Source of the DNA: an uncultured Hyphomicrobiales bacterium
GTDB taxonomy: Bacteria; Pseudomonadota; Alphaproteobacteria; Rhizobiales; Beijerinckiaceae
Length of the DNA: 64,000 bases
NCBI GenBank assembly: GCA_903884435.1
Contig: CAISEY010000343.1
Location: forward strand, 1-64,000
Direction: 5' to 3'
Shown here: positions 14,943 to 17,701 of the stretch, piece after piece
How the letters are laid out: every line of letters begins with the position of its first letter
Numbering within the stretch: the first letter of the stretch is position 1
Notes under the pieces: model-generated
What the model was told of the DNA's origin: nothing
What the model saw: only the letters and a program-made list of their open reading frames with translations
Databases searched by the model: none
Made by a program: the position numbers and the translations under genes

Positions 14943-15965
14943 TCAACGCCGTTCGGGCGGCTTCGGGAAAGACCCCTGCCCGCCCATGCCCGGCGGAAAC
15001 TCTTCCTGCCGCTGATCGCCATCCATCGCGGCCTCGTGCGCCTCGATGTTGGGCGTCCAGAGTTTCAACTGGTCCCGCCGCGCCGAATGGCCGCCGCAAT
15101 CGAAGGCGACCTTCGCCGAGCGGATCGAGGACTTGACGCAATCGGCGTAGAGAATGGTTTCGCCAGACGCCGGGCCGCCAATGATTTCGCCGCGCGGATC
15201 GATGATCGCGCTGCCGCCGGTAAAGCCATCCCCGGACAGAAAGTCGTATTTTCCAGCCAGGGACGCCGGCGGCATGACCGCGCCGACGCACAGCACATAA
15301 CATCCCGACTGCACGGCGAAGGCGCGCGACAGGAGTTGTTGCGAGGGAAAGAACGACGCGCGTTTCGGATTTGGCGGCTCGTAGCCTGGCCACGCCGCGA
15401 CGTGCAGTTCGGCGCCCTGTTCGGCGATGGCGAACGTCGGCAGCGCCATCTGGTGTTCGCAGCCGGAAAGGCCGCTCAAAAGCGCATAGCCGCGGTCGTG
15501 GACCTGCATGTCCATCGCGTCGCCATCGCCCCATATCGAACGTTCGTGCGGCGAGGGGCGCAGCTTCCTCTGGCGCGCGAGCAGTTCGCCATCGGCGCCG
15601 ATGAACAGCAAGGTGGAATAGAGCGTGCCCCGCGTGATCGGATCGCGCTCGCTGACGCCGATGACGACATCGACGCCCGCCTGCCGCGCGGCCTCGCAAA
15701 GCGATTCTGTTTCCGGGCCGGGCACGTCGATGGACCCGGCCATGTAATCGCCGGCGAGATCCCACCAGGCGTCGCCGGTTGGCGCCGCGAGCGAATGCAA
15801 GGGATAACCGGGCAACCAGGCCTCCCCGAAGGCCGCGAGTTGCGCGCCGCGCGCCCCGGCCTGCCGGATCAACCGCAACGCCTTGTCGAGCGAGGCCCCG
15901 GGATCGCAGAAGACGGGCGCGGCCTGAATCGCCGCGACGCGGAAACTGTCTCCCCTGTCGGTCAA
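14943..15965 (-). CDS. Carbon-nitrogen hydrolase (nitrilase superfamily)
   Basis: RVAAIQAAPVFCDPGASLDKALRLIRQAGARGAQLAAFGEAWLPGYP, KLRPSPHERSIWGDGD, LLSGLSGCEHQMALP: Glu-Lys-Cys triad positions of the nitrilase family. Confidence 0.88.
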   Translation of the reverse strand: MTDRGDSFRVAAIQAAPVFCDPGASLDKALRLIRQAGARGAQLAAFGEAWLPGYPLHSLAAPTGDAWWDLAGDYMAGSIDVPGPETESLCEAARQAGVDVVIGVSERDPITRGTLYSTLLFIGADGELLARQRKLRPSPHERSIWGDGDAMDMQVHDRGYALLSGLSGCEHQMALPTFAIAEQGAELHVAAWPGYEPPNPKRASFFPSQQLLSRAFAVQSGCYVLCVGAVMPPASLAGKYDFLSGDGFTGGSAIIDPRGEIIGGPASGETILYADCVKSSIRSAKVAFDCGGHSARRDQLKLWTPNIEAHEAAMDGDQRQEEFPPGMGGQGSFPKPPERR

Positions 15966-16007: not shown

Positions 16008-17219
16008 TCACGGCGCCGCGGTCGAGGACTTGTCCGCGGCTCCCGTGTTGAAATCGAGGACGAGGGTCGGGGAGATCCGTTTCCAGATATGATTGAAGAT
16101 ATTCATCCAGCTCGCGCAATAGACGCTCGGATTGTCGAAGCCGCGCTCGGCGGACCAGCGTTGCGCGAGGTGTCCGCCGCCGCAGGCGTCCATGAATTCG
16201 CACTGTTTGCAGGTGTCGCAAAGTCGAAGGCTGGCGTCGTAAGCCGCGCGCCAGCGAAAGTCCTTCTGGATGTCCTGAAGCGAATCCCTGAACACGCTCA
16301 CGTCGGTGCGCGTGCTGCCGTCGCCGACGATGCGCAGCACGTCGAGCGGCTCCAGGGTTCCGTCGCTCATCAGCGTGACCGTCTCGATCGGCCCGAGCCC
16401 GATCGTGTCGGACACGGCCGCGTCGCCCATCAGGCCCTGGATCATCGCGTCGAGCGTGCTGATGCGAACGCCCCGCGCGGCGTAACGATCGTACCAGACA
16501 TCGAAAAGCTTGATGAAATAGGCGTCAATGGGCGGCGGTTTGTCGAGATGCGACGCGTCGGGCGGCAGAATGTCAAATCTCTCGAACCCCAGTTCATCCA
16601 CGATGTAGGAGAGAATTCGCTCTGGATCCGTCGCCGGATTACAGACGGTGATCAGTCCCGGTTCGATGCCGGCGGCGCGAACGCGCTTCAGTCCGGCGAT
16701 CACGTCGGCATGGGTCCCCTGCCCCTTGAAATCGACGCGTTGCGCGTCGTGAATGTCGGGAGGGCCGTCGATGCTGATGCTGACGCCGATGTCGTACTTG
16801 CAAAAGATTTCAACCCATTCGTCGTCGATGAGAATGCCATTGGTGCACACGCCGCGGTCGATCACGCAGCCCGTGCGCTCCTCGATTCCGGCGAGACTTT
16901 CCTGCAGCTTGACGAAGCGGCGCTTGGGAAACAGCAGCGGCTCGCCGCCGTGAAACACGACCATGAAGTTTTCAAGCTGAAATTCGTTGATGTGTTGTTC
17001 GAGCTTTTCGCAAAAGGCGGATTCGGCTTCCACGGTGAAAACCGCCGGCTTCTTGTAAACGTCGGCGTCGCGAAACCAGTAACAATAGGTGCACGCGATA
17101 TTGCAACGCGAAGCGAGCTTGACCAGCAAAAACGTGAAAACCGGAGCCTCTCCGGCGCCCTGCTGGGCGGAGGGATCGTGCTGGCGGCGCCGGTCGGGAG
17201 GAACATCGACGAACGTCAT
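16008..17219 (-). CDS. Radical SAM/SPASM peptide maturase (GrrM/Fxs/Xye-like, candidate cyclophane-forming)
   Basis: LASRCNIACTYCYW (CxxxCxxC), FHGGEPLLFP, VCTNGILIDDEWVEIFCKYDIGVSISIDGP, and SPASM-like LCDTCKQCEFMDACGGGHLAQRWSAERGFDNPSVYC. Lies next to a repeat-tailed small protein. Confidence 0.9.
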   Translation of the reverse strand: MTFVDVPPDRRRQHDPSAQQGAGEAPVFTFLLVKLASRCNIACTYCYWFRDADVYKKPAVFTVEAESAFCEKLEQHINEFQLENFMVVFHGGEPLLFPKRRFVKLQESLAGIEERTGCVIDRGVCTNGILIDDEWVEIFCKYDIGVSISIDGPPDIHDAQRVDFKGQGTHADVIAGLKRVRAAGIEPGLITVCNPATDPERILSYIVDELGFERFDILPPDASHLDKPPPIDAYFIKLFDVWYDRYAARGVRISTLDAMIQGLMGDAAVSDTIGLGPIETVTLMSDGTLEPLDVLRIVGDGSTRTDVSVFRDSLQDIQKDFRWRAAYDASLRLCDTCKQCEFMDACGGGHLAQRWSAERGFDNPSVYCASWMNIFNHIWKRISPTLVLDFNTGAADKSSTAAP

Positions 17220-17323
17220 GTCAGGGGCGCCATGCGGTTTCGGAAAAAGGGGCCGCGACGGCCCTCGCGGGCGCGAGCTTCACGCCCGCGCTCGCCGCAT
17301 TCATGTACGTCGTCTTCCGGTTC

Positions 17324-17701
17324 TCAGAAGAAACGACGATAGTAGAAACGACGCGGGCGATAGAAACGCCCGTAACGACGATAGAAGCGGCGATAACCGC
17401 GGCGATAGAACCGGCGGTAGAAATATTGCGCGACCTGGGTGCGATCCTTGCCGGTCGCGGCCTGGCTTTCCTGACGCCCCTCGGTGACGATCCCGTCGAG
17501 AGCCGGGTTCGTGGACTTCAAAGTCACCGTCTTGTCGGTCGCCTCGCGGGCGACCGCTTCACCGGCGACGGCGGCGGCGCCGAATCCAACGCCGAGCGCC
17601 TTCAGGCGGTCGAGAAACTTGCGCCTCGAGAGGCCGCTGGCGTTCAGGTCAGCCTGAATTTCGGAGATTTCCCGAGGCTGGTTTGTCCGGTCTTCGCTCA
17701 T
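17324..17701 (-). CDS. Putative radical-SAM-modified RiPP precursor with Tat-like signal and aromatic/Arg-Arg repeat tail (125 aa)
   Basis: ATG at 17701 preceded by AGGAGGACGTGC. Protein MSEDRTNQPREISEIQADLNASGLSRRKFLDRLKALGVGFGAAAVAGEAVAREATDK...QVAQYFYRRFYRRGYRRFYRRYGRFYRPRRFYYRRFF. The tail was checked codon by codon on the minus strand. Confidence 0.85.
   Translation of the reverse strand: MSEDRTNQPREISEIQADLNASGLSRRKFLDRLKALGVGFGAAAVAGEAVAREATDKTVTLKSTNPALDGIVTEGRQESQAATGKDRTQVAQYFYRRFYRRGYRRFYRRYGRFYRPRRFYYRRFF

Follow-up and report, generated by a model that had tools for sequence, protein, structure and literature searches.

The window, a stretch of 64,000 nucleotides, carries on its minus strand a small precursor gene, an rSAM/SPASM maturase gene and a nitrilase-superfamily homologue, and we consider it quite probable that this locus makes a RiPP with three-residue cyclophanes (triceptide type). 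The RiPP reading of the original prediction is strengthened by strict co-occurrence of precursor and rSAM within the genus, a conserved gene order, constraint at the protein level and an rSAM that stands nearest to YhhB and FxsB, not to the sulfatase maturases.

Gene order and build of the precursor

On the minus strand, the gene of the 125-aa precursor (A; 17324..17701, with its ATG at 17701 and AGGAGG directly 5' of it) is followed after 104 nt by that of the 403-aa rSAM/SPASM maturase (B; 16008..17219) and, 42 nt further on, by that of the nitrilase homologue (C; 14943..15965). Recomputing the distance between the precursor stop and the same-strand rSAM start returned the 104 nt given by the original prediction, and the CxxxCxxC motif and Cys-rich SPASM-like C-terminus that it read in the enzyme were found as CNIACTYC and CDTCKQCEFMDAC...YC, respectively. 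The cassette holds neither a protease gene nor a transporter gene. The precursor is built from a Tat-like leader, an acidic to neutral spacer and a Tyr/Phe/Arg tail, and ends in VAQYFYRRFYRRGYRRFYRRYGRFYRPRRFYYRRFF; the YRR-type tail is present as described earlier, with a unit list that was right in substance. Specifically, the 33-residue tail comprises 14 Arg, 9 Tyr, 7 Phe, 2 Gly and 1 Pro, and the composition count agrees with the earlier remark that acidic residues are absent. The putative core, YFYRRFYRRGYRRFYRRYGRFYRPRRFYYRRFF (17327..17425, minus strand), has a net charge of +14 and, parsed without overlap, holds at most seven aromatic-X-Arg triplets.

Such a tail is rare by chance. Among 4749 distinct stop-to-stop frames (60 aa or longer) from all DNA compared, six have 8 or more aromatic residues together with 8 or more Arg in the last 33 positions, and all six are the precursor and its orthologues. 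The precursor scores above the cut-off of no NCBIfam or Pfam family, and the suggestion of a new precursor class therefore stands in this sense, but not as regards the probable chemistry, which is of a known type.

The precursor leader and the rSAM are carried by the identical 5 of 51 genomes of the window's genus. In all five the order of precursor and rSAM is conserved, and the nitrilase homologue comes next each time; mining for repeat proteins near rSAM homologues, as proposed earlier, thus returned a strictly co-occurring, adjacent and same-strand pair. In an order-wide sample of 397 genomes, only two carry both the leader and its closest rSAM: the window's own genome (G000) and G302, which consists of one contig, comes from a different family and supplies the sixth precursor orthologue. 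The genus records, one of them named as a Beijerinckiaceae bacterium and others labelled Rhizobiales, Hyphomicrobiales or Rhizobium, are all metagenome-assembled, and our reading of the isolate names points to fresh water as the habitat. The leader evolves with a dN/dS of about 0.13 (window versus L053: dN 0.17, dS 1.37), and the rSAM enzyme is constrained at the protein level as well. Protein-level constraint extends to the tail, though its units reshuffle between species, a pattern that fits selection on composition and local motif, not on position. A frame or repeat artefact was ruled out by the dN/dS of the precursor together with the composition kept across reshuffled units.

The leader resembles a twin-arginine signal. 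The Tat-like segment, SRRKFLDRLKALGVGFGAAAVAGEAVA (residues 25-51; 17549..17629, minus strand), has AxA at its end, and both SRR and AxA are kept in 6/6 precursor orthologues, in which the leader reads SRRxFLDRLK...AxA (SRRGLLDRLK in G302). Tat models give weak matches at the same leader position, below their cut-off. In line with this, a leader profile matched nothing else in the 397 genomes except the Tat-like signals carried by two hydrolases, which by eye look like dienelactone hydrolases. No such Tat-like signal is evident in YhhA or in the Bradyrhizobium-type precursors described below, and among the literature matches listed we recognised no paper on a Tat-exported RiPP precursor.

The gap between precursor and rSAM contains one or more hairpins followed by a T run (17245..17290, minus strand). 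A strong hairpin is found in all six orthologous gaps, and five of them also have a run of at least four T, the exception being L053. Hairpin and T run are likely to act as a partial terminator that sets the precursor above the enzyme; most transcripts would then stop after the precursor gene, holding the precursor in excess.

The nitrilase homologue retains the Glu and Lys of the Glu-Lys-Cys triad, and the Cys is replaced by Gly or Ser in 5/5 cassettes (GLSGCEH, GLNSWEH and TLAGVEH versus ALNCWEH), with Gly at this position in the window. The protein may be a partner that is non-catalytic or altered; alternatively, it may be a bystander. We put the chances about even that it is linked only and has a role of its own, a reading compatible with the cyclophane explanation. 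In favour of a bystander, G302 has precursor and rSAM with no homologue nearby, and G208, where no rSAM and no precursor turned up, has a close relative that also lacks the Cys; against it, the gene lies directly after the rSAM in 5/5 genus genomes although the genes further downstream differ. A literature search for RiPPs with nitrilases found no paper.

The rSAM enzyme and the precursors of its clade

A search of the rSAM against peptide maturase models, as proposed earlier, gave YhhB as the best match (NF041707; 287.7 bits, cut-off 445), then FxsB (TIGR04269, FxsB/HaaB; 252.8 bits, cut-off 370) and XyeB (176.7 bits), with lower scores for the anaerobic sulfatase maturase (TIGR03942; 123.4 bits, cut-off 349) and GrrM (TIGR04261; 101.5 bits, cut-off 310); the curated cut-off is reached for none of the NCBIfam models. 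The likeness to GrrA/GrrM, Fxs and Xye systems seen in the original prediction thus holds for FxsB, the second-best model, and not for GrrM, which is distant. We accordingly rejected a GrrA/GrrM identity, these being only distant kin. The closest solved relative by sequence is ChlB (PDB 9gm3), at 251 bits versus 136 for anSME with an alignment profile; with the window rSAM sequence as query, ChlB scores 213 bits (residues 26-383) versus 86 for anSME. In the reference list of PMC12636437, ChlB is termed a 'multiple cyclophane synthase'.

Two trees place the rSAM inside a twelve-member clade with 98-100% support. In both, the clade is separate from two sets of enzymes, one made up of YhhB, FxsB and HaaB, the other of XyeB and the sulfatase maturases. 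Because AU tests do not settle the deep placement relative to YhhB and the sulfatase maturases (p 0.19 and 0.23), the clade is best called YhhB/FxsB-like and a member of neither family. A sulfatase maturase identity, which the original prediction had named among the outcomes that would speak against it, was rejected on the scores, the ChlB match and the company of motif-bearing small proteins; the enzyme falls outside the anSME pair in both trees, with the deep order left unsettled by the AU tests.

Members of this clade pair with four unlike kinds of precursor in three phyla, all bearing aromatic-X-Arg/Lys: the Tyr/Phe/Arg tails of the window's genus and G302; Gly-rich FRRGGFVRG-type tails (the Bradyrhizobium type), found in four genomes of Bradyrhizobium size (L056-L059) beside a sister rSAM; FDR/YSR/YDR in Blastococcus mobilis, an actinobacterium; and, in a gemmatimonad, repeats of FDR/FNK. 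The motif exceeds its frequency in same-letter shuffles when six tails are pooled (p 0.0004) and in each other precursor tested (p below 0.006). For the window tail, the overlapping aromatic-X-Arg count is in excess (p 0.003), whereas the non-overlapping count of its tail alone (7 versus 5.3 expected, p 0.13) is not significant, nor are those of three orthologue tails taken singly (p 0.28-0.63), since a tail so rich in aromatic residues and Arg yields the motif by composition. The motif argument therefore rests on the pooled tails and the relatives.

There are several side observations. The FRRGGFVRG-type pairs would allow the aromatic-X-Arg rule to be tested more cleanly. Behind the Blastococcus rSAM lies a YhhC-type 2OG oxygenase (L051, 9119-10795) that scores above the cut-off and is fused to a segment with a weak likeness to peptide arginases (UPF0489); a sirtuin-like protein comes next. 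In the gemmatimonad (L052, 3432-7748), the clade rSAM precedes a PhyH-like protein, and beyond this there is a match to a HExxH-type peptide hydroxylase just below the cut-off. GrrA-like Trp/Arg/Asn/Gly repeat precursors also occur in other genomes of the window's family (L014, L016, L017 and L018), where the adjacent rSAMs are more distant. A small frame from position 1129 of L019, which ends in NFPNFPNFPNFRNF near another rSAM, is a possible further repeat precursor. Additionally, a Rhizobium lusitanum plasmid (L082, 1730-2872) encodes a 380-aa protein with many EMHDQTHSE repeats, which looks like a multi-core precursor and sits upstream of a radical SAM protein and a HExxH modification protein.

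Proposed product and competing explanations

We infer the following route, including the bond, how many rings form, export by Tat and the role of the product. The rSAM/SPASM enzyme would recognise the precursor via its leader, abstract a hydrogen from the beta-carbon of Arg in the aromatic-X-Arg triplets of the tail and join this carbon to the aromatic ring that stands two residues before the Arg. Crosslinking might be iterative, at up to seven non-overlapping sites, and the resulting succession of cationic rings would leave the tail stiff and protease-resistant. The peptide would be modified in the cytosol, then probably be exported by Tat to the periplasm and cut after AxA, which would leave about 75 aa as the secreted protein, its tail a cationic polycyclophane. 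Because this tail is predicted to be charged at +14, rigid and exported, it may bind an anionic partner, such as the envelope, polyphosphate, polysaccharide or the surface of a competitor. A bolder version holds that the tail carries up to seven or eight consecutive Arg cyclophanes, that the product is Tat-exported because it is already rigid and acts in the periplasm or outside the cell, and that the Cys-less nitrilase homologue is a tailoring or chaperone factor; taken as a whole, we regard this version as rather unlikely.

The locus could instead make a RiPP by another chemistry, namely an ether, a C-N bond, a Tyr-Arg side-chain link as in the streptococcal RRR peptides, or an i to i+3 geometry. 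The composition of the tail permits several geometries, and the L049 orthologue favours an aromatic-to-Arg distance of 3, which is more enriched there than distance 2; moreover, related rSAM/SPASM enzymes form diverse bonds (PMC11002830). We nevertheless judge such a product improbable, since the nearest characterised relatives are cyclophane formers and the clade precursors outside the window's subgroup isolate aromatic-X-Arg/Lys clearly. Still further down the scale, and in our estimate very improbable, comes an unmodified tail, in which case the precursor would be exported as a cationic binder and the rSAM would have a different substrate, as it would if it were a sulfatase maturase. The Tat-like signal and the charge would suffice for a binder of the envelope or of polyanions, and the sulfatase maturase model does match the rSAM (123 bits); however, the YhhB and FxsB models score more than twice as high, ChlB is the best solved match, precursor and rSAM co-occur adjacently on the same strand, and the clade accompanies motif-bearing small proteins in three phyla. 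The three-residue cyclophane thus remains our preferred explanation.

Full crosslinking of the tail would yield a ribosomal peptide with a very high density of rings and a genetically encoded rigid polycation. A RiPP precursor with a Tat-type leader would tie RiPP modification to the export route of folded proteins. The clade as a whole would represent probable cyclophane-forming maturases from three phyla whose precursors share only aromatic-X-Arg/Lys; because these precursors differ in all else, the substrate rule of the enzymes becomes testable.

Comparison with known systems

According to a review (PMC11002830), triceptide links connect positions i and i+2, and YhhB forms its bond between C3 of Tyr or C2 of His and the beta-carbon of Arg. 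In line with this, the YhhA cores SYDRMHHRHNRS and AYDRTHNRHNRG correspond to Y-x-R and H-x-R. The aromatic-to-Arg (+2) guess of the original prediction matches this published bond, so the chemistry is less new than it was then thought to be. YhhA/YhhB resembles the window's pair in its small precursor directly upstream of an rSAM/SPASM enzyme, in its aromatic-X-Arg core and in providing the best model for the window rSAM. It differs in that YhhA has 47-84 aa, three triplets and no evident signal peptide, whereas the window precursor has 125 aa and matches no model; the window rSAM stays well short of the YhhB cut-off, and its cassette lacks the YhhC oxygenase and the HExxH domain, with the nitrilase homologue as the third gene instead.

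FxsB/HaaB provides the second-best model and belongs to the same cyclophane-forming group, yet the window rSAM reaches 252.8 of the required 370 bits, and neither HaaA nor a Nocardia candidate precursor has a Tyr/Phe/Arg tail. ChlB is described as fused to an alpha-ketoglutarate HExxH domain, whereas the window rSAM is stand-alone. GrrA/GrrM (OscA/OscB) shares a repeat-tailed precursor, a signal-like N-terminus and an adjoining rSAM; its tails, however, are rich in Gly, Trp and Asn (for example L016 and L018, from the window's family), as against 2 Gly in 33 residues here. No paper describing a precursor of the window's kind was recognised in the literature searched, which excluded the main triceptide papers, so that a prior mention is possible. 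Taken together, the sequence comparisons suggest that the reaction is most likely of a known type, the one published for YhhB, and that it would act here on a type of precursor outside the curated families.
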